Positions 1,500 through 23,224 of a stretch of DNA of 52,689 bases are shown piece by piece. Made by a program: the position numbers and the translations under genes. The notes beneath the pieces are model-generated. The model was not told the origin of the DNA, did not search any database, and saw nothing but the letters and a program-made list of their open reading frames with translations. Origin of the DNA: a virus. How positions within the stretch are numbered: the first letter of the stretch is position 1; the number at the start of each line of letters is the position of its first letter. The stretch covers positions 1-52,689 of the IMG/VR virus record IMGVR_UViG_3300025322_000532, one strand, 5' to 3'.

Positions 1500-1829
1500 C
1501 TATCCTCGTCCGTTTTGCTGCTCGAACGGGACTTCCATTTCCGCTTCGGCATAGGCTTGCATCAAGAGATGGACATCGACTTTTAGCGCCGACTGCAGCG
1601 CCCCGAAGATGGCTTGCGGATTCTTGCGGATGTCGCGAGCCCGGTACAGGCCGCGTTCATGGAGCGTGTTATGAAGCCTGGTCGCAAACGGCTCGGGGAG
1701 CTCCAAGAAGTCCACCGCATCGGGCGGCCCGAGCGGAATCCCCATCGGGGCCTCGGTGTCAGTCGCCTCATCGGGAAGGATCACCCGGTACTTGCGGCCC
1801 CGAGCATCGATCCAGTCGGCCTGTTTCAC
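1500..1829 (-). CDS. small head-tail or tail-terminator protein
   Basis: This 109-aa protein starts inside the ATGA overlap with the connector gene upstream and ends ten bases before the tail tube start. Genes in this slot of siphovirus late operons usually encode head closure or tail terminator proteins. I see no diagnostic motif. The C-terminal half (RARDIRKNPQAIFGALQSALKVDVHLLMQAYAEAE, in pieces) is predicted helical. The role is inferred from position only. Confidence 0.6.
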   Translation of the reverse strand: MKQADWIDARGRKYRVILPDEATDTEAPMGIPLGPPDAVDFLELPEPFATRLHNTLHERGLYRARDIRKNPQAIFGALQSALKVDVHLLMQAYAEAEMEVPFEQQNGRG

Positions 1830-3070
1830 TTGCGAATTCTCCGGCCATCGCTCTGAACCTGCCGCCAGGCGTAGACCCCGCCTCGGGAAGGACCGAACGG
1901 ATTCAAGAGATCGGCCTCACTGATTTGATAGCTCACGTCAGATCCGGTGCGGGACAGATCCTCCCGCCAATACTCCACGAACTTCTCGACATTGTTGCAT
2001 GAACACAACTCGCGGTCAAGGAGCGCGGCGGATAGATAGACGATGGCTTTCTCCCAATAGGGGTCAAGCTGCACCCGTGGGCAAGACACCCGCGGATCGG
2101 TCGATTGCCAACCCGCATAGTACCAGACTCGGAGCTGCTCGGGGTCTCGCCCGACCGAGAATTCCGCCACATCGAACTGCTCATCATCGGAATCCCATGT
2201 CGCCGGCCGATAGGTCAGCTCGCCTAATCGTTCGTTGCGGACGGCCAGGCATCCAGTCTGGGTCGAGAAGGAGCACTCGACACAGCCCGATCCGTTGCAG
2301 TTCGAGCAGCCCGACGGCTCGTGCTCCCAGAGCAGATTGGCCTGGCTCTGCGGATCGTTCCAGACCCGATAGACATCGATCGTCGTTTCGTAGGACGCAG
2401 CCAGGTCCCCGTTGATTCTCTGGTCGGGTAGCTCGGCATCTAGGCGTTCCTGGAGCGTAGGCTTGACCAACTGCCAGCGATCGAAAGTGATCGTGGCTAC
2501 TCCGCCCGCAATCGTGACCGTGATCGGCCGGATCTCGTAGGCGAAGCTCCCGGCCTGGCCGGGCAAGAACGCCCGGATTTCGCAGGGGGAGGTTACAGCG
2601 GTCGCCACCGTCGCGACGGCCCGTTCGTCGTAGCCATCCCCATCGACATCCGAGACCGTGACCACAACCAGATCATCAATCAATACCTGCGCCCGCTGCC
2701 CGCCCGAGATCACATAACCCCAATCGGTTTCGATCGACTTGGCGAGGCCCCGGACGTTCACCGAAGCACTTGAGAACAGCTCGGGCCTTGCCGGACGGAC
2801 AGTCTGCCTGCGCTCATCAGCCACCCAATCCGGAAGCAGGAAGTACCCGAGCTCGGACGCGATCTTCATCTCCGCATCCCGGATCGCTTGGGCTAGGTCC
2901 TCGCGGGAGGTGTAGTTTGGATTCTGATAAGCAAATTGAGTCCACGCATCGTTGCAGTTGCTGGCAGGGACGACGGAGGAGAAGAGCTGATTGGCATGTA
3001 ATGGATTCACCCCGAGGATCTGGAAAAAGCGATCCAAACTAAGCCACGTCGGAGTCGTTGCCCTAGCCAT
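1826..3070 (-). CDS. head-tail connector protein with Cys-rich insert
   Basis: The 414-aa product begins with a helical segment (REDLAQAIRDAEMKIASELG) resembling gp6-type head-tail adaptors, and its C-terminal part (DPYWEKAIVYLSAALLDREL) looks similar. The middle is beta-rich and contains a cysteine cluster (CSNCNGSGCVEC) that could bind a metal. It is much longer than the roughly 100-150 aa of classical adaptors, so the middle is probably an inserted domain. It overlaps both neighbours by a few bases, consistent with one operon. Connector role comes from position and terminal helices; the function of the insert is unknown. Confidence 0.6.
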   Translation of the reverse strand: MARATTPTWLSLDRFFQILGVNPLHANQLFSSVVPASNCNDAWTQFAYQNPNYTSREDLAQAIRDAEMKIASELGYFLLPDWVADERRQTVRPARPELFSSASVNVRGLAKSIETDWGYVISGGQRAQVLIDDLVVVTVSDVDGDGYDERAVATVATAVTSPCEIRAFLPGQAGSFAYEIRPITVTIAGGVATITFDRWQLVKPTLQERLDAELPDQRINGDLAASYETTIDVYRVWNDPQSQANLLWEHEPSGCSNCNGSGCVECSFSTQTGCLAVRNERLGELTYRPATWDSDDEQFDVAEFSVGRDPEQLRVWYYAGWQSTDPRVSCPRVQLDPYWEKAIVYLSAALLDRELCSCNNVEKFVEYWREDLSRTGSDVSYQISEADLLNPFGPSRGGVYAWRQVQSDGRRIRK

Positions 3071-3390: not shown

Positions 3391-3723
3391 CTAGCCATGA
3401 TTATGGCGTTCCACGATGATCGCCAAACTACTCAACCCTAAAACCGCGGAGACGGCCATCGTAGCAGAGGCGGAGAGTCCGAATGCGATGAACCATACCA
3501 GACCGATCCAAGGAGAGAGGCACCAGGTACAAGCCAGTAGTTTTCCCACTTCTCCACGAACGTTATCTGTATCGGGTCGACCGTCGTCGAAATGATCGAT
3601 TCCTGCGGCGGATCGGATTCGTTGGAAGACTGCGAAAGGTCCTCGCTCATACGAAATCAGCGCCGAGACTCTCCATACCGCCAGGCCTCCGACAAGTAGC
3701 TCAGGCAGGTTCGGGACTGGCAC
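3391..3723 (-). CDS. DUF1360 family membrane protein
   Basis: The 110-aa protein has the hallmark of DUF1360 proteins: an N-terminal helix (LLVGGLAVWRVSALISYERGP), then LLACTWCLSPWIGLVWF, in which CxxC-type residues abut a membrane segment, and a second C-terminal hydrophobic helix. The family is known from Bacillus and from phages of Gram-positive hosts, and its function is not established. It overlaps the end of the large glycosyltransferase gene by 23 bases, so it is probably cotranscribed with the sugar cassette. Confidence 0.75.
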   Translation of the reverse strand: MPVPNLPELLVGGLAVWRVSALISYERGPFAVFQRIRSAAGIDHFDDGRPDTDNVRGEVGKLLACTWCLSPWIGLVWFIAFGLSASATMAVSAVLGLSSLAIIVERHNHG

Positions 3724-6661
3724 GTTCCGTCAGCCTGTCCTCAAGGATCCGGATGGCTCCCACCCGCTTCTTCCCGGCCCGCTCTTCCTGCAGCCATTGT
3801 AGTAAGGTCGAGTCCTCCGCGTCAACCGCCGCGCTTGAAATCTGAGCGATGGTCATGTCGTCGGTCTTGCGCGGATCGGGGCCGGGCATCTCCGGGAAAT
3901 CGGGCATCGCCGGCGGGCCGGTGACTTCAACCGGGACCCGGATGCGCTGGCGCTCGGGAGCCTTCTGGACAGTCAGGAAGTCGGGCTTGCCTTTCCGGCT
4001 CCGGCCCAAGAGAACCTCGGCATCGCTGGAGATCACGTACTTCGGCTCGTTGCGGTGGAAGACGTAGACGGTGTTCGTGATCGGGCCCCGGATCGTGACT
4101 TTCCCGTCTCCTGGCCCTTGGTAAGCCAGTAGCGTCATCGGGCCTTCGAGCGCGGCCTGCATCCTGGCACCGAGCGCCGGATTGGAACTCGGATTGATGC
4201 TGGCCTTCGCTTTCCCTGGACAACCTCCGCAGGGCATGGTCTTTCTCCTCTCGTAGTAATCGGCCCAGTTGCGCCGGATCATCTTGAGTATAGCGTCTTT
4301 CTTGCCGAAGCTGTCCTCCCGGATGGTCCCGGTCCGGAACCGGTAGATGAATCCGGGGATGGGCACCCGGTAGCTGCAGACCCCCGCGGCCTGGAGGGCA
4401 ATCAGGTAATCCCAGTCCTCCCACCCCGGCATCGTCTCGTTGTAGCCTTCGACTTCCTCATGTGCCCACTTTGGAATCAGACAGGTCATGGCGTGCCGCA
4501 TCTTGATCAACACGTCCCCGCAGCGGAACTCGTCGGACTCGACCATCTGCATCGGCTCGCGTGGATCCGGTTCTGCTTTCAGCCAGTCGGTGTAGATCAG
4601 GCCGCCGCCGGTCCCGATGTGATAGGCGTACATCTCTTCCAATGCATTCGAGAGCAGCATGTCATCCGCATCGAGCAGAAAGATCGCCTCCGAAACCGCG
4701 TGGCGGGCCGCGAGATTGCGGGCCTGGGACGGCCGCATGAGCTGTCCAGGATCAATCACTTTCGCCCACGGACAGCCGGCGACCGGGGAATCGAATTGGT
4801 CTGCGCTCGGCCAAGCCTTGCCCGTCGCGTTGACAACAATCGCTTCCCAGTCCTGAAAGGTCTGGGCCAAGACCGAATCGAGCGCGTCGATGACGTACTT
4901 CTCGTGCCCCGGCCCGACGGGGATCAGGACCGAGACTCTGGGACTCACTCGATCCGGAACCGGCCAGAAGCGCACCCCCGGAGGTGGGTCTCCCTGGGCC
5001 GACCACGGCACCATGTCCTCGTTCGGATGCCCGATGCTGGTCCGCATGAGCGCCGCCCCGTCCTTGCCGTTGTCGGCTCCCAACCGCCAGGGAAACTCCA
5101 GCGTCCAATCCCCGTCGCCGGGTTCTCCCTGCGACTTGGAATCCGACCGCCAGCGGTAGACCAAGGTCGCGGCTTCGGTGACTTTCTGGATCTTGAACCC
5201 GAAGCTGGAGGCGAGGATCCACAACGGCGCATCCTCGGCTCGCCAATGGCGAGTTCTGTAGCCTCCAGTCCGCTCCATGACCTCCCGCCTCATCAGCGCG
5301 GAGTAGGGGAGCTGGTTGAGGTGCGCCATCTGGGCCCGCCAGTTGTACTGCGCGAACGGCCAGGAGTTCCGTTGACGGTTTGTTCCGTCCTCGCTCACCG
5401 TGTCCAGATGCCCATAGGCCACATGGATCGATGGGTCTTGATCCAGCACGCCCGCGAGGGTTCGTAGCGCGTGTTCGGCCAGCATATCATCGGCATCCAG
5501 AAACAGAATGTACCGGCCCTTGGCGTGGGTGAACCCGAAGTTGCGAGCGCCAGGGAGCTTCAGATTTTCGGGCGTTCGGAGGTAACGGAAGCGGGGATCC
5601 TGCTGAGACCGAACAATGGAGACCGGATCGTCCGCGCTCGCATCGTCAATGACGAGGCATTCCCAGTCCTGGAAATCCTGCGCCGCCACAGAAGCCAGGC
5701 AGTCGCCAAGATACCGAGCGAGATTGTGAGTCGTGACCACCACCGAGACCTTGACTGCTTGGGCATCCCACCAAAGCCGCGCCCGTTTGAAGAGATCCGC
5801 ATATTGCTCAATCCTCCGTTCCCAGCCCCAGCGGGTCACGACATCGTGGCGGGCATTGGCTCCTAAGACATCCCGGTTCTCCAACGCCCACTGCAGGCCC
5901 TCGGCTAGGGCCTCGTAGTCTCCAGGCTCGGCCAGAAATCCGGTCTCAGTATGCTTGACGATTTCGGCCTGCCCGCCCCAGTTCCAGCCCACGACCGGGA
6001 CTCCGCAGCTCATCGCTTCAAGCGTCCCGATTCCGAAGGTCTCACGCGCGGTCGCGAGATAGACCCCGGAATTTCGCACGATTTCCCGCATGTCCCCGAC
6101 CGGCATGACCCCGAGGATCTGGATATTGGACGGCGCGGGACCCGGCGCAATCGTGGACTGAAACGCCACATTCGGGACTCGCTTCGCGACCTCGATCAGG
6201 TCATAGGGATCGCTGACCGGATCGGCGCGGGCTTTGTTCCAGAGCACCGTCGGCCGCCAGTTGCCGGAAGGAGTCCATTCGTCCGAATCGACTCCGTGGT
6301 ACACGACCTCGGGATAGACCAGCATGCCTCGGCGCAGGGCCCGGGCGACCCATTCGCTCGGCGCGGTATGGAATTGGGCGCGGGCCATCGCCCGGACGAC
6401 TTCCCGATTGGCCTCATGTGCCCAATTCGGCCAGTCATAGCGACTCCAATAGCAGCCATGATTCGCGTTCACGATCGGGCGGTCCGGCGGCATATCCACG
6501 ACCATCGTCCCATGCGTGCAGACGACATCGGCCTCCCGCCAGCCCGTGACCGGTTCGATCCCGAACTGCGGGAGGTACTTCCACATGGCCTCAGAGACCC
6601 GGCGGATGCCGCCGTCGCCGTGATCCGGCTTGGCCCACGTAGGGATTATTGCGACCTTCAC
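3701..6661 (-). CDS. three-domain glycosyltransferase (GT4-GT2-GT2) with virion-like C-terminus
   Basis: The 986-aa protein joins three catalytic modules. Residues about 1-295 are a GT-B, GT4-like domain with the donor-site signature ETFGIGTLEAMSCGVPVVGW. Residues about 304-510 are a GT-A, GT2 domain (VSVVVTTHN, VIDDAS, LFLDADDML). Residues about 575-800 are a second GT2 domain (VSVLIPVGPGHE, FLLDADDML). From residue 809 the sequence changes character: MPCGGCPGKAKASINPSS, then a beta-rich stretch (RGPITNTVYVFHRNEPKYV) resembling small phage structural proteins. It may build a short glycan on a virion protein or host surface polymer. The 6658-6661 overlap couples it to the epimerase. Confidence 0.85.
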   Translation of the reverse strand: MKVAIIPTWAKPDHGDGGIRRVSEAMWKYLPQFGIEPVTGWREADVVCTHGTMVVDMPPDRPIVNANHGCYWSRYDWPNWAHEANREVVRAMARAQFHTAPSEWVARALRRGMLVYPEVVYHGVDSDEWTPSGNWRPTVLWNKARADPVSDPYDLIEVAKRVPNVAFQSTIAPGPAPSNIQILGVMPVGDMREIVRNSGVYLATARETFGIGTLEAMSCGVPVVGWNWGGQAEIVKHTETGFLAEPGDYEALAEGLQWALENRDVLGANARHDVVTRWGWERRIEQYADLFKRARLWWDAQAVKVSVVVTTHNLARYLGDCLASVAAQDFQDWECLVIDDASADDPVSIVRSQQDPRFRYLRTPENLKLPGARNFGFTHAKGRYILFLDADDMLAEHALRTLAGVLDQDPSIHVAYGHLDTVSEDGTNRQRNSWPFAQYNWRAQMAHLNQLPYSALMRREVMERTGGYRTRHWRAEDAPLWILASSFGFKIQKVTEAATLVYRWRSDSKSQGEPGDGDWTLEFPWRLGADNGKDGAALMRTSIGHPNEDMVPWSAQGDPPPGVRFWPVPDRVSPRVSVLIPVGPGHEKYVIDALDSVLAQTFQDWEAIVVNATGKAWPSADQFDSPVAGCPWAKVIDPGQLMRPSQARNLAARHAVSEAIFLLDADDMLLSNALEEMYAYHIGTGGGLIYTDWLKAEPDPREPMQMVESDEFRCGDVLIKMRHAMTCLIPKWAHEEVEGYNETMPGWEDWDYLIALQAAGVCSYRVPIPGFIYRFRTGTIREDSFGKKDAILKMIRRNWADYYERRKTMPCGGCPGKAKASINPSSNPALGARMQAALEGPMTLLAYQGPGDGKVTIRGPITNTVYVFHRNEPKYVISSDAEVLLGRSRKGKPDFLTVQKAPERQRIRVPVEVTGPPAMPDFPEMPGPDPRKTDDMTIAQISSAAVDAEDSTLLQWLQEERAGKKRVGAIRILEDRLTERASPEPA

Positions 6662-7587
6662 GCGGTTTCAGGCTGTTCGGCCCGCTCAAGTTTCCAGGCT
6701 TGGATAGTCTGTTTGAGGCCCTCTGTCAATGAGATAGTAGGCTCCCAATCCAGCCTGACTCGGGCTGCCCCAATCAGCATCACCACGGATCGCAGCTCGC
6801 CCGGCTTGGCGGGAGCATAGGTGATGACTTTGGATGATCCGGTAATCACGAGTAATTGCTGAACGATCTCGTTCACGCTGGTCCCGCGACCGGTAGCGAC
6901 GTTAAAGCTACCGATTTCCTCTGACTCTATGGCCTTCAGATTCGCCTCCGCCACGTCCTTGACGTAGACCCAATCCCGGACCTGTTCGCCGTCCCCGTTG
7001 ATCTGGAACGGTTCGCTATCCAGCATGTGCGCCAAGGCTCGAGCGATCAGGATGTTCTCGCCCAAAGGCTTCTGGCCGGGGCCGTAGACGTTGCCATACC
7101 GGAGAGCGGCCCATGAAAGACCCGAGCACGCGCAGTACATCTCGGCCGCGGCCTTGGAGACTCCGTAGGGGACCTGCGGAGAAACTGAATCGGTCTCTAG
7201 GTAGAATCCATCCTCTTTCGGGCCGTAGACCGCCGAGGTCGAGGCCATGACGATCCGCTTGCAGCCGGATCGCTGGGCCGCCTGCAAAACCGAGAGAGTC
7301 CCGAAGATATTGTGATGGGCATCATAGAAAGGCGTTTCGATGCTCTGCTGCAGGCTGGCGTTCGCCGCCAGATGGAGCACCGCGTCGGGCCGGAACCGCT
7401 TGAACGCGGTCTCCATCCCGGCATAATCCGTGATGTCCCAAGCCATCGGCTTGTAGGCCCCAAAAGGATCGCCGGTGTAGGCGGGCAGATTCCGATCGAT
7501 GCCGAGAACCCGGTGTTTGGCTTCGATCAGCCGGCGGACGGAATGGCGGCCGATGAACCCGGCCGAGCCGGTGACGACGACCCTCAT
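6658..7587 (-). CDS. NAD-dependent sugar epimerase/dehydratase (extended SDR)
   Basis: This 309-aa extended short-chain dehydrogenase has the Rossmann motif TGSAGFIGRH at the N-terminus and the catalytic pair in PYGVSKAAAE (YxxxK). Its closest general type is UDP-glucose 4-epimerase or a nucleotide-sugar dehydratase/epimerase; the substrate cannot be read from sequence. I chose the ATG that overlaps the upstream gene's TGA, because the 42 residues obtained by starting further upstream are a shadow of that gene and the fold begins at RVVVTG. It lies between two glycosyltransferases, indicating supply of an activated sugar. Confidence 0.88.
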   Translation of the reverse strand: MRVVVTGSAGFIGRHSVRRLIEAKHRVLGIDRNLPAYTGDPFGAYKPMAWDITDYAGMETAFKRFRPDAVLHLAANASLQQSIETPFYDAHHNIFGTLSVLQAAQRSGCKRIVMASTSAVYGPKEDGFYLETDSVSPQVPYGVSKAAAEMYCACSGLSWAALRYGNVYGPGQKPLGENILIARALAHMLDSEPFQINGDGEQVRDWVYVKDVAEANLKAIESEEIGSFNVATGRGTSVNEIVQQLLVITGSSKVITYAPAKPGELRSVVMLIGAARVRLDWEPTISLTEGLKQTIQAWKLERAEQPETA

Positions 7588-8270
7588 GGTGTCACTTTGT
7601 AGCTCGGTTCCTGGCCGATGTGCCCGAACACGCTCCACCCGCCGTTCGGGAGGTTGACCGGCCACCAGATCTCGGGGCCGTCTCTCTTTTCCCGCATCTT
7701 CGCGTCGTGCCAAATCTCGCAGTCGCCGGGGTTTTTGCCCGAAGGATAGCCCTCGTAGGCTTCGAAGTAGCGGCGGTGGCGGATGCTTGGATTTCCTGAA
7801 TAAGCGTACTGCGTGGACTTCTGGATCCGCAAGTAATGCACGCCGTCATGCCCGACCGAATGCAGATCCAAGCCCACGGCGAGATACCCGAGCCTCACCA
7901 TACCGACCTCGGGCTTGTCGAGCAGGAGCTTGACGTAGCGCGTGACATCTAGGTCCTGTGTCAATTCCCAGTCGTCCTCCAGCCAAAGGATCAGATCGCA
8001 ATGCTCCAAGGCTTGCTGAACCGCCCGATTCCAGGACGGGCCGGGACCTAGCTTCTCAGAGTGCGATCCGAAGACTGTCGCTTCCTTCTGCTCCAAAGCC
8101 GCGAGCACGCTGAAAAAGTGCGGTGGATCGGAACCATCGTCGGCGACGTACCAAGCCAGGTTCGGATACTTCAGCCGTTCGCAGACTGAATTCACCGTCC
8201 GCACCGCGTAATCGGTGCGCTGGTAGGTCAGGAGGCAGGCCGCCATCCGAGGCCAGTCGTTGTCAGGCAT
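7584..8270 (-). CDS. GT-A type glycosyltransferase
   Basis: The 228-aa protein begins AACLLTYQRTDYAVRTVNSV and has an acidic metal-binding motif LILWLEDDWEL, both typical of GT-A/GT2-like glycosyltransferases. A C-terminal VFGHIGQEPSYKV is like the end of small phage glycosyltransferases. It overlaps the sugar kinase (TGATG) and the epimerase (ATGA), so the three are translationally coupled. Acceptor and donor are unknown. Confidence 0.8.
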   Translation of the reverse strand: MPDNDWPRMAACLLTYQRTDYAVRTVNSVCERLKYPNLAWYVADDGSDPPHFFSVLAALEQKEATVFGSHSEKLGPGPSWNRAVQQALEHCDLILWLEDDWELTQDLDVTRYVKLLLDKPEVGMVRLGYLAVGLDLHSVGHDGVHYLRIQKSTQYAYSGNPSIRHRRYFEAYEGYPSGKNPGDCEIWHDAKMREKRDGPEIWWPVNLPNGGWSVFGHIGQEPSYKVTP

Positions 8271-9265
8271 CAGAAATCCGGTTCATCCCGATAGACCACC
8301 TCGCTGCCCGGCACCCCATACTTCACATGGATCCGCCGCAACTTGGTCGCGTGATCGACGGCCTCCAGCCGGTCTTCTGGCACGCAGAACACGAAGAACC
8401 CGCCCGCCCCGGCGCCGCAGAGCTTCCCGCCTGTAGCCCCGGCCTGCAAGGCCCGATTGTAGACGAGATCGAGGTCCGGAGTAGACACCTGATCCGACAA
8501 CCGCTTCTTGCGCTGCCAGGATTCGTCCAGGACGTAGCCCATGTCCTTGACCCGTCCGTCGATCAGCATTTCCCGGGCTTGGCTGGCGAGGCCGGCGATC
8601 GCCCGGGTCTCGGCCGCGGTCCTGTCGTTCTTGCGGATCCTCTCGGACGCGTTCCTGAGCACGTTCTGGGCCTGGCGATGAATCCCCGTGTAGTAAAGCG
8701 GGAACCAGCGGCTCATCTGATCCAGCGTTGAGGTCGGCAGGTTAAGATTCTCAATCCCGACCGGTCCATTCGGATCGAAACTCATGTAATTCACGCCCCC
8801 GAACGCCGCCGCGAACTGATCCTGTTTTCCGCCATCTTGTTTAAGGCGGGCGAGTTCGATTTCGACGGCGTGATTCGCGAGCCAGGTCGGAGACGGCCGG
8901 GCTCCGAGATAAGACCCCAGCGCATGGAGGACCGCGACCGCGGTGCTGCTGCTCGATCCGAGACCCGAACCCTTCCCAGGGATCTGGCCTACGCTCGTGA
9001 TCTCCAGCCCCATCCCGGCGCCGGTCAGCTGAATCGCTTCCCGGACCAGATCGTGACTCAGGTAATCCAGCCGATCCACGTCCTCGGTGACGCTGTAGCT
9101 CAACCGGACCCGGTTCGGATGCCAATGGCGGCTCAGGGTGACGTAGACATAGGCCCCGATCGCCGCATTGACGACCGCCCCGCTCTCGCCCCGCTCCAGC
9201 CAGGCCACGAGATCCGAACCCCCGCCGGCGAAGCTGACCCGCAGCGGAGTCCGGACGACGATCAT
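8270..9265 (-). CDS. hddA-like: GHMP sugar kinase, HddA-like (heptose 7-phosphate kinase)
   Basis: The 331-aa protein shows all three GHMP kinase motifs: VVRTPLRVSFAGGGSDL, GKGSGLGSSSSTAVA (ATP loop) and GAGAGGFFVF. The GGGSDL start and QDQFAAAFGGVNYM segment are characteristic of D-glycero-D-manno-heptose 7-phosphate kinases (HddA) and related sugar-1-kinases. I chose the ATG overlapping the upstream TGA because the fold begins there. With the GmhA-like isomerase elsewhere on this strand it would give two steps of the GDP-heptose route. The phosphatase GmhB and nucleotidyltransferase HddC are absent and would have to come from the host. Confidence 0.85.
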   Translation of the reverse strand: MIVVRTPLRVSFAGGGSDLVAWLERGESGAVVNAAIGAYVYVTLSRHWHPNRVRLSYSVTEDVDRLDYLSHDLVREAIQLTGAGMGLEITSVGQIPGKGSGLGSSSSTAVAVLHALGSYLGARPSPTWLANHAVEIELARLKQDGGKQDQFAAAFGGVNYMSFDPNGPVGIENLNLPTSTLDQMSRWFPLYYTGIHRQAQNVLRNASERIRKNDRTAAETRAIAGLASQAREMLIDGRVKDMGYVLDESWQRKKRLSDQVSTPDLDLVYNRALQAGATGGKLCGAGAGGFFVFCVPEDRLEAVDHATKLRRIHVKYGVPGSEVVYRDEPDF

Positions 9266-9624
9266 TTGGTTGAAGTCATATCGGGATTGAGATCCTCTAC
9301 CGTTAGCTGAGTGATACCTACTGTTTCTTTCGCGTAGTCGAAACACTTTCGCTGGAAATAGAAGAGCACTTCAAGAGCAAAATCGACCGCGTATTGATCC
9401 CATCCGAATCGAGCCACGAAATCTTCGTGGCGGCCTAGTTCTATATATCGAGTAAAACCAACGAAGTTTGGGATTGGACCGCTATCTACAGTGCATCTAT
9501 ATTGCGCGTCCCAAATCTCAAGGATTAGGTCTATTTTCCAAGTCTTATCAGTCGCAATATCGAGTAGCTTTTTGATATTGATTCCAACTGCTTGGCAATG
9601 GACTGCAAATTCTTTTTCGTTCAT
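9262..9624 (-). CDS. hypothetical protein, AT-richer than neighbours
   Basis: A 120-aa protein I do not recognise. It is helical and aromatic-rich (DFALEVLFYFQRKCFDYAKE). Base composition is clearly AT-richer than the flanking sugar genes, suggesting a recent insertion. It sits in the cassette between the methyltransferase and the sugar kinase and its stop overlaps the kinase start, so it is probably expressed with them. Confidence 0.65.
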   Translation of the reverse strand: MNEKEFAVHCQAVGINIKKLLDIATDKTWKIDLILEIWDAQYRCTVDSGPIPNFVGFTRYIELGRHEDFVARFGWDQYAVDFALEVLFYFQRKCFDYAKETVGITQLTVEDLNPDMTSTK

Positions 9625-9657
9625 TACGATACCCCATGAATCCGAAGACTTCGATCC

Positions 9658-10230
9658 TTATAGGCCCTCAGACGGAGGCTTAGAGAATACTTGGCAATTC
9701 GCGGCGAGCCACATTTGAGGACTCGGAATCAGCTGCCAGGCGAGCTTGAGTTTGATCGTCAGGTCCTCGCGGTAGTGCAACCTCCGACCGTCAAACATCG
9801 TGCGCCAATAGTCGGCCCCTTTGAGATGCACATGCCCGTTCCCGGCCTGGCCGGGTGAGGCCGCGCTGAAGATCAGGAGTCCACCTTCAATGACATGATG
9901 GGCAATGTTCGCGACGAAGGTCTCGGCATACATCTCAGGGATGTGTTCGGCGGTCTCCAGGCAGAGGACGTAGGCGAACTGCCGGGCGAGATCCAGGGGG
10001 GTCGCGAGGTCCGTCCGGTAATCTGGGGGCTTGGCGATCTGATCGACTCCAACCGCCTCCACCCCCAAAGACCGGGCGAACTCCACCATCGCCCCGGTCC
10101 CGCTGCCGATGTCGAGGAGGGTCGGCGGGATTCCGAACAACGCAAATATCCCCATAAGCGCCCGGCGGTTCCACGGATCGAACGGCCGCAGTAAATCCAA
10201 CCATTCGTCCTCGGTCGGCTGGTTGCTCAT
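9658..10230 (-). CDS. class I SAM-dependent methyltransferase
   Basis: About 190 aa with motif I LLDIGSGTGAMVEFARSLG, an acidic motif II (AVGVDQ) and a motif IV region (YVLCLETAEHIPE), typical of small class I methyltransferases. The ETAEHI pattern is common in methyltransferases acting on sugars or small molecules rather than on DNA. As first gene of the sugar cassette it may methylate a glycan, for example to cap a chain. I prefer the ATG at 10230 to the GTG five codons upstream; the evidence is not decisive. Confidence 0.75.
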   Translation of the reverse strand: MSNQPTEDEWLDLLRPFDPWNRRALMGIFALFGIPPTLLDIGSGTGAMVEFARSLGVEAVGVDQIAKPPDYRTDLATPLDLARQFAYVLCLETAEHIPEMYAETFVANIAHHVIEGGLLIFSAASPGQAGNGHVHLKGADYWRTMFDGRRLHYREDLTIKLKLAWQLIPSPQMWLAANCQVFSKPPSEGL

Positions 10231-10402: not shown

Positions 10403-10434
10403 AGCCCGAGGCGCATTCTAGCACGCCTCGGGCT
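10403..10434 (-). terminator. intrinsic terminator after the capsid gene
   Basis: An 11-bp perfect stem (AGCCCGAGGCG with CGCCTCGGGCT) closes a 10-nt loop. On the minus strand it is followed by TTCTTTTT. It lies 19 bases past the capsid stop codon. It separates the highly expressed head genes from the sugar cassette, so that cassette either relies on read-through or has its own promoter in the next 170 bases, where I see no convincing one. Confidence 0.9.
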
Positions 10435-10453: not shown

Positions 10454-11908
10454 CTAGTTCCAGTCGGTGTACAGGCTCGGGGCCGGCCGAGACGTTACGC
10501 CGCCGTCCACGAAGTACGGATCCTCAGGGTGGACGTCCCTCGGGTGCTGCAGAGGCTCGTACCGAACGTTCTGAATCCGGCCCGCAATCTGCGGGGTCCG
10601 GAGCACGATTCTCGGCTCGATCTTGGACTCCCAGACCACGCACCAGTTCACGTTGTCCCAGGTCCAGAGATACATGCCGTCATCGGTCCAGAACTGATTG
10701 GTGAGCCGACCCTGCACCATCGCCTGGGTCGCCCCGGCCCGATAGTCAAAGTGCTGCCAGAAGGTGACGGGAGTCGCGCCCATTGCGGTGAGCGGCACGA
10801 GGTAGACGTCGCTCGCGAACTGGCCGCCGTTGATCGCCGCGGCATCGGCTTCGGTTTCCTCCAGGATGAAATCATCCAGGACCACCGGGACTCGAACCCC
10901 ATCGACCAACAGGTAGTTACCATTCCGCATCGCGTCCCGCAGTGCTACCTGATCGGGGCCGTTGATCACCAGCCGCTCGTTCCCGGTCGTATTGCAGCGG
11001 TAGCTGTAATATTCGCAGGCCCAGATGTCGGTGATCTCCCAGAACAAGGCGGTCCGCATGACCCAGGTCCAGCGCGCCGGATTGAGTCCGGTCGATTGGG
11101 CGATGTGGTTGACGAACCGCCACATGGTCGTCATCACCCGCACGATGTCGGGGCTGGTCGCTGAATCGCTGACCAGGCCGTAGTTGAAGTTCTTGACATC
11201 GGATCTCAGCGAAGGGCAGTCCTGGCCGGTCAGTGCGTCCTGCTTGTTCGTTCCGATCAGAAGATCGAGGCCCTGAAACTCCTCGTAGCCTCCGCCCGCG
11301 CTGTTGTTGGCCGGGGATCCGACGTAAGTCTGACGCCCGAGCCGGTTCGAGAACGCGATCCCGAGCTCCAGCATCCGGGCGAGAACCTCCGCGCCCGCCG
11401 CCAGCTGGGCCTGTCCCGATAGATTCGGGAAGATCGAGGCCCCGAGTTCCGGAGCCAGGGGATCGTTCAGGAGCCGCAGGTCATTGAACTCCCCGCGGCT
11501 GATCAGCTGCCCGATCCGGTTGATCTCGAGCTCCCGGCTCATGAACGAGTAACGCCCAAACGGAGCGGTTTGCAGACAGGTCTTGAGCTGGCCGGCGGTC
11601 TCCGGGTCATCGCAGACATTCACCGGAACGGTCCCGGTCACGTCCTGAAAGCCCGTGATGTAGCCGAACAGCGGGTGAGTGAATTGGCTGGCGAACGTGG
11701 GCAGGATTGCCGCCAATCCATTCGGGGCGATCCGGGTATGGAAGAGGTCACGCTCGACTCCCTCCACTCCGAACAGCCCGCCCGGGCCGTGCATATACGC
11801 CCCGACCGGGGTTCCCGAAGCCGTCACCTTCTGTTGGAAGGAGCCGCCGTTCAGGATGAGCTGCTTCAGGGCTTCGGTGACTTGCTCTTGTGTCGCGTTA
11901 GGGAACAT
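10454..11908 (-). CDS. major capsid protein
   Basis: The 484-aa product follows the protease-scaffold gene and is followed by a strong terminator, the usual setting of a major capsid gene. The sequence fits a large capsid protein: a helical N-terminus (TQEQVTEALKQLILNGGSFQ), long beta-rich regions and aromatic clusters (WVMRTALFWEITDIWACEYYSY). It lacks an easily recognised HK97 signature, so the call rests on position and length. A GAGGTGG ribosome site precedes the ATG. Confidence 0.78.
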   Translation of the reverse strand: MFPNATQEQVTEALKQLILNGGSFQQKVTASGTPVGAYMHGPGGLFGVEGVERDLFHTRIAPNGLAAILPTFASQFTHPLFGYITGFQDVTGTVPVNVCDDPETAGQLKTCLQTAPFGRYSFMSRELEINRIGQLISRGEFNDLRLLNDPLAPELGASIFPNLSGQAQLAAGAEVLARMLELGIAFSNRLGRQTYVGSPANNSAGGGYEEFQGLDLLIGTNKQDALTGQDCPSLRSDVKNFNYGLVSDSATSPDIVRVMTTMWRFVNHIAQSTGLNPARWTWVMRTALFWEITDIWACEYYSYRCNTTGNERLVINGPDQVALRDAMRNGNYLLVDGVRVPVVLDDFILEETEADAAAINGGQFASDVYLVPLTAMGATPVTFWQHFDYRAGATQAMVQGRLTNQFWTDDGMYLWTWDNVNWCVVWESKIEPRIVLRTPQIAGRIQNVRYEPLQHPRDVHPEDPYFVDGGVTSRPAPSLYTDWN

Positions 11909-14094: not shown

Positions 14095-14628
14095 CTACGT
14101 CAAGCGGAGGGATCGCCGAATCGCGAGCCGGATCAGGTTCTCGTGGTTCTTTTGTCGGCGTCTTGCGATCTCAATATCGAAGTCTCGAGCCTGGGTCCCC
14201 GGATGCTGGACCGCCCGCGCAAACGCCACCGGACCGGAGGCCCCGCCTGCCCTGGAACTGATTATCCGAGGTCGAGTCTTGGCCTTGAAACCAGTCTGGA
14301 ACCGGAGCCTACGCGCTCGCCGGGGCCGGATCAAATGCGGGCGAGTTCCGCGGGTGACGTAGGTATACGCCTCCTGGTTTGTGGAAACCAATACCTCCAA
14401 GTCGGCACCCGTCAACCGCGGTCCCTCCTTGCGGAATGACGGCTTGTGCTCCCAGGTTTTTACCGTCTTCTGAAAGTCATCCCGAATGATATTGCCGGTG
14501 TGATCTAGCGCGTCCTTGAGTTCACGCTGAAGCCGGGCCAGATCGATCAGCTTGGCGACCTTCGGCAGGATCGGAATGAACTTGATGTCAGCCAACGGGA
14601 ACCCACTCGTCTTCCAAGAAGAGCTCAA
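14095..14628 (-). CDS. HK97 gp10-like head-tail protein
   Basis: The 177-aa basic protein has the family's usual features: a helical N-terminal half (LARLQRELKDALDHTGNIIRDDFQKTV) and the late motif AVQHPGTQARDFDIEIARRR, matching the HPGxxARPF-type signature of HK97 gp10-like proteins involved in head-tail joining. It begins within the last 41 bases of the MuF gene. In most siphoviruses this gene lies after the capsid gene; here it is before the protease. Confidence 0.72.
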   Translation of the reverse strand: MSSSWKTSGFPLADIKFIPILPKVAKLIDLARLQRELKDALDHTGNIIRDDFQKTVKTWEHKPSFRKEGPRLTGADLEVLVSTNQEAYTYVTRGTRPHLIRPRRARRLRFQTGFKAKTRPRIISSRAGGASGPVAFARAVQHPGTQARDFDIEIARRRQKNHENLIRLAIRRSLRLT

Positions 14629-16261
14629 TCTGACAGCGGCAGTTCGAATTGTGGGAAATCAAGCCTTCAACGATGAAGGAATGATCTTCTTCTACCCGGA
14701 GGTCATAGAGCGGAGTGCCTGCCAGTAGTGCTCCAGTGAGCAATACTTGTTGGGGCGTTCCTTCCGAGGTCGTTTCCAGAATTCTTTTCCGCAGATGACG
14801 CAATGATGAGCCATTCGCGTATTTGGCCGGGGATGAAGTCTCGCGTGTTCGGAGCTTGTAAGGAGCTTTAAGTTCTCTAAGCGATCGTCGGTCGGATCGT
14901 GATCGACGTGATGAATAACCATCCCTTTCGGAATAGATCCATGTGCCACCATCCATACCCATTGATAACGGTAGATCGTTCTCCTCTTCGCGCCATCCCA
15001 AAAAAGAGCATATATCCGTCCGTCCAATTTCTTGTTTCGGAAATGTTCCTTCCTTAGATCGTCGAAAGCCCTCCTGCGCTGGATTCCAGCTTGTCGGATA
15101 CCACTCAGGATGCGTTTGCGTTGATTGACGTTCCGCCATTGGAGTTTGGCTTTGCGGGACATGCCGCAGCTCAGACATTCGTCCGCGCGAAAGTCTTTCT
15201 TCTTTCCACAGTGGCAAATCCGAGAACAAGATGTACAGATGTCCGACTGGCGATCCTTGCGATAGCTTGTCCCGCATCGCGTACAGATTTGAGGCATAGT
15301 CTAGAGTATACACCGACAACCGTTTATTGGCTATGTTATCCGTCCTCTGCCAACCGAATTGAGTAAGCCACCGATGATCTGACGTGCAACCGATCCATTC
15401 ACCGCTGGGAGCTAAGAGCCAGGCCTGTCGGTGTATAGGTCTTGAAAAGCTGATGATCGTCTCCAAGACAGTACGCCAACGACCTCGATGAGTAAGAACC
15501 TGATCTCCAATTACCACGTCACGAATTGGTATCTGGCCTCTATTTGTCAGAACGCGGGAATTAGAAGTTGTGATGCAATGGCATTGATCCGAGCCGTCCG
15601 CTGGCAAGCCGCCAGTGAGAGCCAGCATCTCATTCCACGAGCCGTACTCGCGGGCCTTCGGCGGGCAGGTCGCGCAGTGCTGGGCACCGGGATCGAGTAA
15701 TCGCCGCACCGGAACCGTATCCGCTTGCAAGCTCTCACGCATCGATTCCTGAACCCCGAGCCACACCGCGGTCCAGTAGGCCCCGGTATACAACCCGACC
15801 CGGCTCGCCCAGGCCAGGCCGCGGTCATCCGCGAGCTGGCCGAGAGTCAAGCCACCGACTTCGGGATCGCTGAGGTCCGCTCCGATGTAGGGGAGCAAAC
15901 TACTGATCAGGAACCCGGAGTTGAGGTTCAGCGCGGCTGCCAGCGCGACCGCTTGGGCAATCCCGGACCCTGTCCCGAACCCCAGCTTGAACGCGTTCGG
16001 GAATTCTTTGCGGGCCAGCTGATCGAGCTGGACTTCCAGGTCAACCAGCGCGGTGGCGACCGCCGCATCATCGGACAACGAGAGCGCGGAGTAGGCCGCG
16101 ATCCACGCCAAGAGAACGGCAGTCAGCTTCCGACGGTATTCCTCCGTCTCCTCTTCGGCAAGGCCGGGTTCGCCGATCAGTTGCTTCTGCCAAACGTCTG
16201 AGGCTTGTAGTAGTTCTAACGAGGCCTGAATGACCCGCGAAGAATCAGCAATGATCATCAC
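14588..16261 (-). CDS. MuF-like head morphogenesis protein interrupted by an intein
   Basis: The 557-aa precursor contains a 247-aa extein and a 310-aa intein. The extein is a Mu F-like minor head protein: helical N-terminus, CATCPPKAREYGSWNEM, and after splicing QCH-SNCRC, the conserved C-terminal Cys/His motif of the family. The intein runs from Cys229 to Asn538 and interrupts precisely that motif, a typical site for inteins because the residues are essential. The +1 residue is Ser539. MuF proteins act in head assembly beside the portal, in agreement with its position. Confidence 0.88.
   Translation of the reverse strand: MMIIADSSRVIQASLELLQASDVWQKQLIGEPGLAEEETEEYRRKLTAVLLAWIAAYSALSLSDDAAVATALVDLEVQLDQLARKEFPNAFKLGFGTGSGIAQAVALAAALNLNSGFLISSLLPYIGADLSDPEVGGLTLGQLADDRGLAWASRVGLYTGAYWTAVWLGVQESMRESLQADTVPVRRLLDPGAQHCATCPPKAREYGSWNEMLALTGGLPADGSDQCHCITTSNSRVLTNRGQIPIRDVVIGDQVLTHRGRWRTVLETIISFSRPIHRQAWLLAPSGEWIGCTSDHRWLTQFGWQRTDNIANKRLSVYTLDYASNLYAMRDKLSQGSPVGHLYILFSDLPLWKEERLSRGRMSELRHVPQSQTPMAERQSTQTHPEWYPTSWNPAQEGFRRSKEGTFPKQEIGRTDICSFLGWREEENDLPLSMGMDGGTWIYSERDGYSSRRSRSDRRSLRELKAPYKLRTRETSSPAKYANGSSLRHLRKRILETTSEGTPQQVLLTGALLAGTPLYDLRVEEDHSFIVEGLISHNSNCRCQIELFLEDEWVPVG
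14648..15577 (-). mobile_element. intein in MuF
   Basis: Splicing blocks are visible: block A CITTSNSRVLTNRGQIP with Cys1, block B GCTSDHRWLT (TxxH type), GWQRTDNIANKRLSV closing the N-terminal half, and blocks F/G in TPLYDLRVEEDHSFIVEG ending LISHN, then Ser+1. About 95 N-terminal and 25 C-terminal residues are canonical. The 200 residues between are not a recognisable in-frame endonuclease; they are the alternative-frame reading of a nested HNH gene. Splicing is inferred from these motifs. Confidence 0.9.
14692..15297 (-). CDS. HNH homing endonuclease nested out of frame in the intein
   Basis: The 201-aa protein starts with zinc ribbons (CTRCGTSY, CTSC, CHCGKK, CLSCG), then an HNH domain (HGSIPKGMVIHHVDHDPTDD, RLENLKLLTSSEHARLH), and ends with a zinc finger (CVICGKEFW ... 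YCSLEHYW). It reads in the +1 frame relative to the intein frame and lies entirely within it. A TAG two codons upstream closes its own frame, so it must start internally. I see no Shine-Dalgarno site. A TATACT box 7 bases before the ATG could permit a leaderless transcript, though the -35 is poor. Base composition is AT-richer than the extein, as for a mobile gene. Confidence 0.88.
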   Translation of the reverse strand: MPQICTRCGTSYRKDRQSDICTSCSRICHCGKKKDFRADECLSCGMSRKAKLQWRNVNQRKRILSGIRQAGIQRRRAFDDLRKEHFRNKKLDGRIYALFWDGAKRRTIYRYQWVWMVAHGSIPKGMVIHHVDHDPTDDRLENLKLLTSSEHARLHPRPNTRMAHHCVICGKEFWKRPRKERPNKYCSLEHYWQALRSMTSG

Positions 16262-19827: not shown

Positions 19828-20963
19828 CAGTTTGGATATTTGATCCACCACTCGCCAGCAGGCGAAATGTCGGCCTCTACCGTATCCGAAGCGTTGTTCC
19901 GCCTCTGATAGTAGCCCGTTGGGACGTGCTCCAGGACAAATGGAATGCAATCCAAGCCAACCTCAGAGCATCCGGAGACGATTTGCCCATAGCGATTTCG
20001 ATAGCCGTTGAAATCGACGTAGCCGTCGCCGTCGGGATCATCGAAACCGCCAATGCTTCCAGCCAAGATGTGCATGGTCATCCTGGAGTTGTTCAGCGCG
20101 CACTGGTAGTCCGGACAATAGAACTGGAGTTTGAACGGGTCCAGAGGATCGACGGGACCCCAAACGTCTTCGCCCCGTATTGCCAGGTCAGTGAATCCTC
20201 CGACTGTGGCTCCGTACCAGGTGGCAATTTTCGGCTTCGGAGGACCGGAATTGTGCAACCTACGATTGTTGCCACAGGTGGAGGGGTCGCTGGGTAACGG
20301 CACATGCACGTCATCCACGAACAGACACCCGAAGTCGTGCCAGCCTCCACCGCGGAGAATGCCACAGTTATCGGGATCGCTCTCGCGACAAATCAGCAGT
20401 TCCATCCAGTAGCTGTGATAGCGCACGGTTGCGCCCAAGCTACCCATGATGGCATGGTACTGCACTCGATAGGCTTTCACGCAAATCGCGGCATATTGGG
20501 CGAAGCAGGACTCATCGACATTCACAAGCCATCCATAACCCTCATGCTTATTGGCATTCTCATTGGGTGTCTGCCACGGATAGGAGACTCCTCCGCCCGC
20601 CCACCCATAGAACTGAACGCCAAAGATGTCATCGACGGAATGGGGGTCTTCCTTGTGTTCGTGGCCGAACGCCTCAGTAAGCGGATGCCATTCTCGATCA
20701 TTATGCTCACTCGGCTCTAGTGTGTCGGTTGGGAACGGCGTATCAGTCACGGTAGGTTCCGGCGTATCTGTAGGAGGAATAGGAGTGTCGGTAGCAACCG
20801 GCTCCGTAGCAGTCGATGCCAGCTCCGGCACATTGAAGACGTACTGCCCCGCCTCCAGATCATATTCCCCCGGAGGGAGCGCAGGCCCTTGAGCGAGCGT
20901 CCGACCAGCGAATAGAGCGGCCAACAAAACTATAACAGCTACAGCGATTTGTCTCTTGTTCAT
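19827..20963 (-). CDS. secreted protein with Thr-Pro-rich linker
   Basis: The 378-aa protein starts with a signal peptide (MNKRQIAVAVIVLLAALFAG, then TLAQ), has YDLEAGQYVFNVPE, a Thr/Pro-rich linker (DTPIPPTDTPEPTVTDTP), then a Cys- and Trp-rich globular domain of about 270 residues with a possible calcium-type loop (DDPDGDGYVDFNG). Exported proteins are uncommon in the head module, so this looks like a moron acquired from a host. The linker style is typical of Chloroflexota. It overlaps the portal stop (ATGA). It may alter the host surface or be a host-derived glycan binder; the function is unknown. Confidence 0.72.
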   Translation of the reverse strand: MNKRQIAVAVIVLLAALFAGRTLAQGPALPPGEYDLEAGQYVFNVPELASTATEPVATDTPIPPTDTPEPTVTDTPFPTDTLEPSEHNDREWHPLTEAFGHEHKEDPHSVDDIFGVQFYGWAGGGVSYPWQTPNENANKHEGYGWLVNVDESCFAQYAAICVKAYRVQYHAIMGSLGATVRYHSYWMELLICRESDPDNCGILRGGGWHDFGCLFVDDVHVPLPSDPSTCGNNRRLHNSGPPKPKIATWYGATVGGFTDLAIRGEDVWGPVDPLDPFKLQFYCPDYQCALNNSRMTMHILAGSIGGFDDPDGDGYVDFNGYRNRYGQIVSGCSEVGLDCIPFVLEHVPTGYYQRRNNASDTVEADISPAGEWWIKYPN

Positions 20964-23224
20964 TTCCGGATCTCCAATCGCTCAATCAGCTGATCTTCGC
21001 CCCGAATGACATCGTAGTCAATCATCTCGCCGGAAGCTAAGTGTTTGCGGATGAGCGTCGCCCGGCCGTTCGCGTCCCGTTTGAGGATCTCCTGCTTGAC
21101 CACGACCGCGCTGAGGCGGGCTTGCTCGGCTTTGGCCTCGGCTTGGGCGGTCAGTTCGGCCACGGATTTCTGGGCCTTTTGCGTCTTCTCGATCTGGCGG
21201 AGCGCTTTATCGAGACCCGAGACCGCCAGCCCAATCGCCTGCCTCCGTTCGTCGTTCTCCTGTTCGAAGGACAGCATCGCTTGATCCAGCCGCTCGTTGA
21301 TCTGGCGAGTCTGGGTTTCCAAGCCCTCGCTCATATTGGCGGCCGTGACGCTGAGATCTTCCCGCATCGACTGGCCGGCCTGGATCAGAGTCTTTTCGGC
21401 ATCGCCCGCGATCTGGCGCATAGAGCGATCTAACCGGTTGTCGATCAGCTGATCTAATCCTTCGGTCCTGGCTTTTCGAATCTCGGAACCCATGTTCTCA
21501 AGGACGGAGGACCTCATTTGAGTCTCTAGTCGCTTCAGGCCCTCACCGAACATATGCTGGAGGGAGTCAACAGCTTCTTGCAACGTCTGATCGGTCTTGG
21601 CCGCGATCTCTTGAACCGAATCGGCCAAGGCTTCATCAACGGTTCCTTGCAGGCCGGTGGACTGGAGTTCCTGGACGATCCGAATCAGGCCATCCAGCTT
21701 CGCATCCAGGCTTACTTCTTTGGCCGCTTGATCAAGCAGCATCATCACGTCAGGATTGCGCTGTTTGAACTGCGGGTTCTGGCTCAGAATTCGAGTGAAA
21801 TTCGTAAAGGTAGACCGAAGCATCTTGTCCTCAGCGGGGAGTTCCGTTTCTGGTGCAACTATGATAGCACCGACTTCGGAATCGTCGCTCGGTTTCTCAC
21901 CGCCTTCGACCGTCTCCTCGGGCGTGACATCCCCTTCGCCGATCGCTACCAGATATTCGGGCTTCAGATCCCCGTCGTCGGCCGCGATCTGGCGGGCGAT
22001 CACGGGCGAGATCTCCCTGCTCTCAATCATAGTCTTGCGGGTTTCGGCGCGGGTCTTCTTGACGGTCGCCTCTTCCTGCTCGGCCTGGATGTCCTGTTCT
22101 TTGAACCGGAACGTCACCGTGCGGGGCATGACCCCGTGGAAGTTGAAGGCTTGCTCCAGCATCCGCATGAACGCGGCGGGACCCTTGCCGCGAGCTTTCA
22201 AATGCAGGACTTCGGACTGCTGGCCGGTCCCGATGTTGCCGGCCGGGAGCGGCGCGAAGTCCTGATAGTCCCGCCCAAATCCGAGGGCGAGGCTTGAGAT
22301 GTACCACTTGAGCTCCTGGTCGAAATCAAAGCCCTCGGGGAGCGATTTCAGTTCGAGCTTGGCGACCGAGACCTGAGTACCGGGATCCAAGGATCCAACG
22401 ATCAGCGGGCCGAGATAGCGGACTAAGCCCTGGTTATCAGCCTGGGCTTCCATGCGGGCTTGAACGTCTTTGATGTCCTGCGACTTCACGCCGCCCAAAG
22501 CATAGATCGCCTCAGCGAACCGGCCGCCAGCCTTCTCGCCGCGGTAGATCTCCATGTCACGCAGGATCTGGGCCGAGCGCAGGACTCGAGTCACCGCCGA
22601 ATATTGCACGCCGTACATGGACGTGATCGGGGCCGGGAATTCCGCCAGCGCGATGACCGAATGCCAGGGCATCTTGTGGCGAGATCCCTTAATGTCGGTG
22701 TAGATGACCGGGAACTCCAGATCGCCGGTGCGCTGGCAGCGGGCCGAGTCCAGATGGGCGATCCCGAGGATGGGCGCGGCCGGGGAATTGGCTTCTCGGA
22801 CGATTTCGATGAAGGCCCCGTTATCCTGAGTGTAGAGATCGAGCGAGACCTTGACCGAGAACTCTCGCCAGCCCCGGCCGAAGTCGGCTTGGTTGAGCAG
22901 CTCGTGAACGACCTCGACCGTGCGGTCCGGGCCGTCGAGTTCCCATTCGAGCGAGGCATTGGAAGTTGCGCAGGTGAAGACCGCGCCGGCCAAGAACGAT
23001 TCGGTCGGCCAGAACTCGCGGAGTTCCATGTCACGTTTGACGACGTTCTTGCCCCAAGCCTCGAAGGTATCGGCAATCGAGGCCATCCACAGCACGAACG
23101 CATTACCCCCTCCCGGCCCGGCCTCAAGCGAAACCGGAGGCTGCTGAACAGATCGAGTCAGCGTCCGCTGCGGGGGCGGAGGAGCCGGGGCGTTGATCGC
23201 TTTGGTCTGAGTGCCGTTAGCCAT
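20960..23224 (-). CDS. portal protein with long coiled-coil extension
   Basis: The 754-aa protein has a portal core (residues about 40-420: NVVKRDMELREFWPTESFL, IEIVREANSPAAPILGIAHL, ISSLALGFGRDYQDFAPLP) and is in the right place after TerL. The C-terminal roughly 330 residues are charged and heptad-like (QEIAAKTDQTLQEAVDSLQH, ARLSAVVVKQEILKRD), much longer than most portals. The extension could project into the capsid or serve as an internal scaffold. The portal call rests on order and on the core's resemblance. Confidence 0.8.
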   Translation of the reverse strand: MANGTQTKAINAPAPPPPQRTLTRSVQQPPVSLEAGPGGGNAFVLWMASIADTFEAWGKNVVKRDMELREFWPTESFLAGAVFTCATSNASLEWELDGPDRTVEVVHELLNQADFGRGWREFSVKVSLDLYTQDNGAFIEIVREANSPAAPILGIAHLDSARCQRTGDLEFPVIYTDIKGSRHKMPWHSVIALAEFPAPITSMYGVQYSAVTRVLRSAQILRDMEIYRGEKAGGRFAEAIYALGGVKSQDIKDVQARMEAQADNQGLVRYLGPLIVGSLDPGTQVSVAKLELKSLPEGFDFDQELKWYISSLALGFGRDYQDFAPLPAGNIGTGQQSEVLHLKARGKGPAAFMRMLEQAFNFHGVMPRTVTFRFKEQDIQAEQEEATVKKTRAETRKTMIESREISPVIARQIAADDGDLKPEYLVAIGEGDVTPEETVEGGEKPSDDSEVGAIIVAPETELPAEDKMLRSTFTNFTRILSQNPQFKQRNPDVMMLLDQAAKEVSLDAKLDGLIRIVQELQSTGLQGTVDEALADSVQEIAAKTDQTLQEAVDSLQHMFGEGLKRLETQMRSSVLENMGSEIRKARTEGLDQLIDNRLDRSMRQIAGDAEKTLIQAGQSMREDLSVTAANMSEGLETQTRQINERLDQAMLSFEQENDERRQAIGLAVSGLDKALRQIEKTQKAQKSVAELTAQAEAKAEQARLSAVVVKQEILKRDANGRATLIRKHLASGEMIDYDVIRGEDQLIERLEIRK

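Follow-up and report, generated by a model that had tools for sequence, protein, structure and literature searches.

A sugar-gene island at a fixed place behind the capsid gene in a probable Chloroflexota phage lineage

We describe an island of sugar genes in a virus genome, IMG/VR record IMGVR_UViG_3300025322_000532, of which a stretch of 52,689 bases (positions 1 to 52,689, hereafter the window) was analyzed; every gene at issue lies on the minus strand. Judged by gene order in its relatives, the island is a fixed, lineage-specific place, flanked on one side by the major capsid gene and on the other by genes for a DUF1360 membrane protein and a connector-like protein. Its contents indicate that a three-domain glycosyltransferase is the constant core, and that the heptose-type kinase found in the window is optional cargo. 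These observations suggest that custom-made sugars are attached by these viruses to their particles or to the host.

Results

Position of the island and its lineage

A profile scan identified 68 IMG/VR loci encoding this capsid protein. Gene neighborhoods were counted in 71 capsid loci, with a flank of at least 5 kb required and sugar genes sought within 10 kb. A glycosyltransferase was present downstream of the capsid gene in 40 of the 43 loci with a sufficient downstream flank, and some sugar gene in 42 of them, but no glycosyltransferase was found upstream in any of the 63 loci with a sufficient upstream flank. These counts include near-duplicates, and capsids were therefore clustered at 90% identity as a check. 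After clustering, a downstream glycosyltransferase was present in 35/38 loci, any downstream sugar gene in 37/38 and an upstream glycosyltransferase in 0/52. In 37 clustered loci with both flanks, the glycosyltransferase was confined to the downstream side in 34 and to the upstream side in none (sign test, 1.2e-10). Three loci lacked a downstream transferase. L110, with a flank of 5.9 kb, has methyltransferase, sulfotransferase-like and short-chain dehydrogenase/reductase (SDR) genes; L152 has a single SDR gene; and L157 has nothing within 10 kb, its three-domain gene lying farther off on the same contig (L258). A chance arrangement was rejected, as the place of the block is conserved across many divergent relatives.

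The capsid protein that anchors the island had no match in Pfam, NCBIfam, PHROGs or phage records. It was assigned by structure prediction: an AlphaFold model built on an alignment of 62 homologues (61 of the 64 listed capsids, with L140, L141 and L164 excluded, plus that of the window) reached a mean pLDDT (predicted local distance difference test) of 81.6, and Foldseek matched it to the capsids of SPO1 (9vel, 4e-10), P23-45 (6i9e, 5.5e-9) and HK97 (2ft1, 2.7e-7), as well as to viral capsid models. An earlier model built on 8 sequences was unusable (pLDDT 35). Thus, the capsid call of a sequence-only reading of this DNA was borne out as an HK97 fold by model, though not by a sequence-family match.

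Capsids within the lineage diverge down to about 33% identity. Matches in the GTDB genome set were limited to two contigs, both from Chloroflexota metagenome-assembled genomes (MAGs), and a homologue was detected in 7 of 396 genomes of the Chloroflexota class Anaerolineae. In six of these seven genomes, which provide short stretches, a sugar gene adjoins the capsid gene. Because the capsid homologues sit in Chloroflexota MAGs, the hosts are probably Chloroflexota of the class Anaerolineae.

Core transferase and variable cargo

A scan with the three-domain glycosyltransferase yielded 80 listed matches, of which 10 with an E-value of 1e-18 or weaker were dropped. At least 70 loci were of the full type, after which scores fell sharply (from 1e-60 to 1e-18). 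Among the matches listed, the capsid gene was present in 56 of the 61 full-type loci with at least 8 kb upstream; of the other five, L203, L240 and L258 have a capsid gene elsewhere on the contig. DUF1360 and/or connector-like genes were near most full-type loci among these matches. Two GT2 domains followed in the same frame in 29 of 33 GT4-domain frames, and the remaining four frames (L003, L004, L148 and L170) are cut by the contig end. Residues E207/E215 in the GT4 domain, and D389/D391, E476-D477, D664-D667 and E748-D749, were invariant in 13 homologues; we take these to be the GT4 and GT2 motif positions. The C-terminal part contains a cysteine pair followed by a small domain and had no credible family match in 6 homologues including that of the window; it may resemble small structural proteins of phages. 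Among 50,697 phage records, 93 matched the enzyme, none of them with a place covering 80% of it.

In contrast to this core, the other island genes vary. Downstream of the capsid gene (n=43), we found genes for GT-A transferases in 30 loci, PseB-like dehydratases in 22, other SDRs in 20, methyltransferases in 11 and the kinase in 10. Further cargo in L004 comprises genes for an NKWYS (capsular polysaccharide) protein, a GT10-like protein and another protein of GT2 type, and the cargo of L010 includes a radical-SAM/SPASM gene. In the near relative L003, an HNH-like open reading frame (ORF), recognized by eye, lies between the GT-A and SDR genes. The sequence-only reading had proposed that donor-supply genes travel with the transferases; for the kinase this is true of a minority of loci only, and the constant element appears to be the three-domain transferase. 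Two loci also encode a receiver-like protein (cREC_REC) soon after the kinase, in L011 at 15364-15771 (4.6e-12) and in L128 at 15404-15844 (by eye).

Layout of the block

The same reading had placed five enzymes (a methyltransferase, a kinase, a GT-A transferase, an SDR epimerase and the three-domain transferase) in one run behind the capsid terminator. All five are present, from 10230 down to 3701, and the terminator, read from 10434 to 10403, has the expected stem and T-rich tail. The inventory of that reading overlooked a 120-amino acid (aa) ORF, which has no counterpart in L003, and the DUF1360 gene, which shares an overlap with the last part of the gene for the three-domain transferase (Table 1). 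Starting with the 120-aa ORF and ending with the 986-aa gene, successive genes overlap by 4, 1, 4 and 4 nucleotides (nt) at their starts and stops, and the block therefore looks translationally coupled. No match to the DUF1360 protein was found among the 50,697 phage records. The name "connector" could not be upheld for the gene at 1826-3070: its position is conserved in relatives, but a search that included 7 homologues gave no family match, and the name comes from position only.

The best NCBIfam match of the SDR was GalE (149 bits, against an equivalog cut-off of 262), and its nearest solved structure is a UDP-glucose 4-epimerase (4zrm, 1.3e-59). Dehydratases carry a TDE motif at the position where this protein reads STSAVYG. 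Given this sequence and the epimerases among its nearest families and structures, assignment as a dehydratase was rejected.

Table 1. Features of the sugar island and associated genes in the window
Feature	Position	Strand	Basis or remark
Major capsid protein, HK97 fold, 484 aa (island anchor)	10454-11908	-	AlphaFold model and Foldseek
Intrinsic terminator between capsid gene and island	10403-10434	-	13-bp stem, 6-nt loop, TCTTTTT tail
Class I S-adenosylmethionine (SAM) methyltransferase, possible sugar methyltransferase	9658-10230	-	Pfam Methyltransf_23 3.1e-9
120-aa ORF, coupled to kinase gene	9262-9624	-	No family match
GHMP sugar kinase, HddA-like	8270-9265	-	NCBIfam HddA NF049969 9.2e-45; phrog_34407 5e-63
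GT-A glycosyltransferase, GT2 type	7584-8270	-	Glycos_transf_2 1.6e-8
Extended SDR, GalE-like nucleotide-sugar epimerase	6658-7587	-	Pfam Epimerase 1.4e-55
Three-domain glycosyltransferase GT4-GT2-GT2 with C-terminal tail, 986 aa	3701-6661	-	One GT4 and two GT2 domains
DUF1360 small membrane protein	3391-3723	-	PF07098 3e-10; hydropathy peak 1.99
98-aa ORF between DUF1360 and connector-like genes		-	
Connector-like protein, 414 aa, lineage-conserved	1826-3070	-	Name from position only
GmhA-like SIS-domain isomerase	27394-28044	-	Phosphoheptose isomerase NF010546 1.8e-29

Kinase, isomerase and the heptose question

HddA was the top NCBIfam model for the kinase, with a score (153.5 bits) below the equivalog cut-off, which none of 14 control genomes reached either. 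Most motif positions are invariant in the kinase alignment, and the nearest solved structures are a heptose kinase (3k85, 3e-37) and HddA (4n3o, 1.9e-34). The isomerase has a SIS fold, with GmhA as its best match and 1x92 as the nearest solved structure (2e-22). Its gene, which the sequence-only reading had linked in function to the cassette, is real and lies outside the block, 17 kb away, with the terminase and a gene for a DNA methyltransferase as neighbors. An isomerase gene is also located upstream of the terminase in G001 (L107, 1089-1754), and that of G005 (L106, 963-1505) adjoins a small zinc-finger ORF.

That kinase and isomerase belong together, as had been proposed, is well supported by their genomic linkage. 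Kinase relatives are encoded in 446 IMG/VR stretches, showing how widespread pairs of a heptose-type isomerase and kinase are among phages. Linkage was counted in 80 kept loci: 59 had an isomerase gene in the same stretch, 49 of them within 200 nt. In phage records, the kinase was found in 11, the isomerase in 10 and both in 5 (P 4e-17; 6e-14 with duplicates removed). Both occurred in 5 of 9 lineage records; the remaining four are possibly partial genomes. In L064 the two genes are contiguous with a nucleotidyltransferase gene, which lies in the middle; the best match of this protein and of its counterpart in L128 is the HldE heptose-1-phosphate adenylyltransferase domain TIGR02199 (3.7e-20 and 5.6e-23, respectively).

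A different view is that kinase and isomerase form a separate small-molecule module, for heptose or another sugar phosphate, signaling or counter-defence, and have nothing to do with the transferases. Many other phages carry the pair but not this capsid, in L064 and L075 it lies upstream of the capsid gene and apart from the transferases, and the kinase is an optional island gene. However, the kinase gene is inside the island in the window and in L004, L011, L126, L127, L128, L131, L132 and L170, and in Caulobacter phage Cr30 the genes for isomerase, kinase, glycosyltransferase and epimerase are neighbors. We consider a separate module improbable.

Whether the product is a heptose is a different matter, and several results weigh against it. 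Neither the canonical nucleotidyltransferase (PF00483) nor a GmhB-type HAD phosphatase (TIGR01656) was detected in the 9 lineage records, and an rfaE-type nucleotidyltransferase (PF01467) was found in one of them, which is not the window. Kinase and isomerase scores were all under the NCBIfam equivalog cut-offs. In GmhA, available text of one study gives Glu as the proposed catalytic base and Gln as the acid (PMC7705670). The base is replaced by Asp in 59/59 kinase-linked phage isomerases and the acid by Glu in 9/9 aligned sequences, with the later His retained. A complete phage-coded heptose pathway was rejected for want of the nucleotidyltransferase and phosphatase genes. Of the heptose-type activated sugar suggested earlier, the isomerase-kinase pairing stands, and heptose chemistry is the less secure part. 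Because of the low scores, the substitutions and the missing enzymes, the substrate is not certain; the isomerase belongs to an uncharacterized GmhA-related subfamily, with heptose 7-phosphate as the best guess.

Other features of the window

In the head-gene region, an intein-like insert (Intein_splicing 2.9e-4, Hint_2 7e-4) breaks up an ORF (14588-16261, minus strand) whose conserved cysteine motif presumably marks it as MuF-like. This ORF contains, in another frame, a 201-aa HNH-like ORF (14692-15297, minus strand). Its counterpart in L004 has no insert. The portal protein (20960-23224) has a long extra C-terminal tail, with 754 aa compared to 476 in L004. Proteins at 45505-48054 and 51518-52654 showed matches to beta-propeller-type repeats (Kelch, DUF5122 and BNR-like). 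The window ends (1-1171 and 51519-52689) form a direct repeat of 1171 bp with 91% identity, apparently within a tube gene, which points to a circular genome whose closure joined sequence of two strains, or else to a gene duplication.

Discussion

A likely acceptor

The glycan could be placed on the virion, on the host envelope or on phage DNA. Of these, we lean towards the virion, since the place is fixed among head genes, the enzymes are soluble, no lipid-carrier or flippase genes were found in the scan of the island proteins, and mycobacteriophages provide a precedent. By hydropathy, no island enzyme has a transmembrane segment, and DUF1360 alone has one. The island proteins scanned include neither a flippase nor a lipid-carrier transferase, and neither a polymerase nor a transmembrane transferase.

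The same absences argue against the view that the island modifies the host envelope, for receptor masking or superinfection exclusion, in the way proposed for pelagimyophage transferases and O-antigen conversion modules; so does a site amid structural genes rather than early or lysogeny genes. The island lacks the membrane flippase and membrane transferases of an O-antigen conversion (GtrA-GtrB-Gtr) module, with no such Pfam match and no transmembrane segment in its enzymes. Nevertheless, envelope modification is a possibility to be taken seriously, if an unlikely one. Heptose, sulfo and PseB-type sugars are frequent in bacterial envelopes. One GT2 domain weakly matches the GtrB-like phrog_22739 (2e-12), and the core transferase gene is coupled to that of a membrane protein. 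In addition, the lipopolysaccharide-type genes of pelagimyophages have been interpreted in this way in the text available (PMC7029224).

Sugars might also be placed on the DNA, as in glucosyl-type hypermodification. Phage glycosyltransferases are able to glycosylate DNA, according to available portions of one report (PMC12619734), and the isomerase gene of the window adjoins a DNA methyltransferase gene. However, no base-hydroxymethylating or hypermodifying enzyme was found among the 20 window proteins in the Pfam scan, which are part of the proteome, and in L107 the isomerase gene lies near the terminase without that DNA methyltransferase in between. We regard DNA as a highly improbable acceptor.

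In the scheme that we favor, the island genes would be expressed late, together with the structural genes. The isomerase and kinase would probably make one sugar from a ketose phosphate, e.g., sedoheptulose 7-phosphate, with the phosphatase and nucleotidyltransferase steps supplied by host enzymes. The SDR epimerase and methyltransferase may tailor the donor or the product, and the three-domain and GT-A enzymes may work in the cytoplasm to assemble a short glycan, for which a virion protein would be the most likely acceptor. A change of cargo would then change the glycan, with the core kept constant. Some points count against this scheme. Neither an acceptor nor a glycan has come to light, and both the acceptor proposed for the island and the late expression are inferred. 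A membrane protein whose gene overlaps the core gene would also suit a membrane-bound acceptor. The contigs behind the host call come from MAG bins and could have been assigned to the wrong bin. From the C-terminal tail of the capsid protein, considered as a possible acceptor signature, we draw no conclusion, as it was not more conserved than the rest (0.57 vs 0.55).

Comparison with known systems

Phage sets of gmhA, hddA, transferase and epimerase genes are already known from annotation, and so is virion glycosylation. Caulobacter phage Cr30 resembles the window in having phosphoheptose isomerase, HddA kinase, glycosyltransferase and epimerase genes (gp006-gp010), which are neighbors in Cr30; its kinase is 34% and its isomerase 33% identical to those of the window. 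Unlike the window, Cr30 is an unrelated phage of 156 kb, its genes are not between capsid and connector, and a three-domain transferase was not seen. Compared to the GmhA-HddA-GmhB-HddC pathway for GDP-heptose, the window has the first two enzyme classes but not the last two, and the acid/base residues of GmhA differ in the phage isomerase.

Glycans have been reported on the capsid and tail tube of mycobacteriophages Che8 and Rita (Freeman 2023; PMC11256854, PMC12619734, as far as their text was available). These phages, like ours, encode their own transferases, although for the island a virion glycan is a prediction. Maravista, a related phage, has its transferase genes close to the 3′ terminus, a place unlike that of the island, and donor-supply genes are not mentioned in the accessible parts of these sources. 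In the portions of the open-licence full-text literature available to us, we found neither a lineage that combines a near-constant three-domain transferase with an exchangeable capsid-connector sugar cassette nor anything relevant on sugar genes of Chloroflexota phages.

Synechococcus cyanophages Bellamy and SynMITS9220M01 share with the window an HddA-like kinase, SDRs and transferases, and SynMITS9220M01 also has an annotated D,D-heptose kinase. However, these are Kyanoviridae of 190-205 kb, in which nucleotidyltransferases and phosphatases are added and the genes occupy another place in the genome.

As a rule, the glycosyltransferase genes of phages are optional and scattered. In the lineage described here, the transferase is near-constant despite divergence and locked into the order of head genes, suggesting that the glycan belongs to the biology of the particle and is not an accessory. 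It is tempting, though still speculative, to view the whole lineage of Chloroflexota phages as built on obligatory capsid glycosylation, with a dedicated three-domain core enzyme that makes a short virion glycan and, next to it, an exchangeable cassette that sets the identity of this glycan. If so, these phages would swap virion glycan types (heptose-type, PseB-type, sulfotransferase-like or methylated) at one fixed place. With donor genes that vary around a constant core enzyme, the lineage offers a natural series for finding the purpose of phage glycans.

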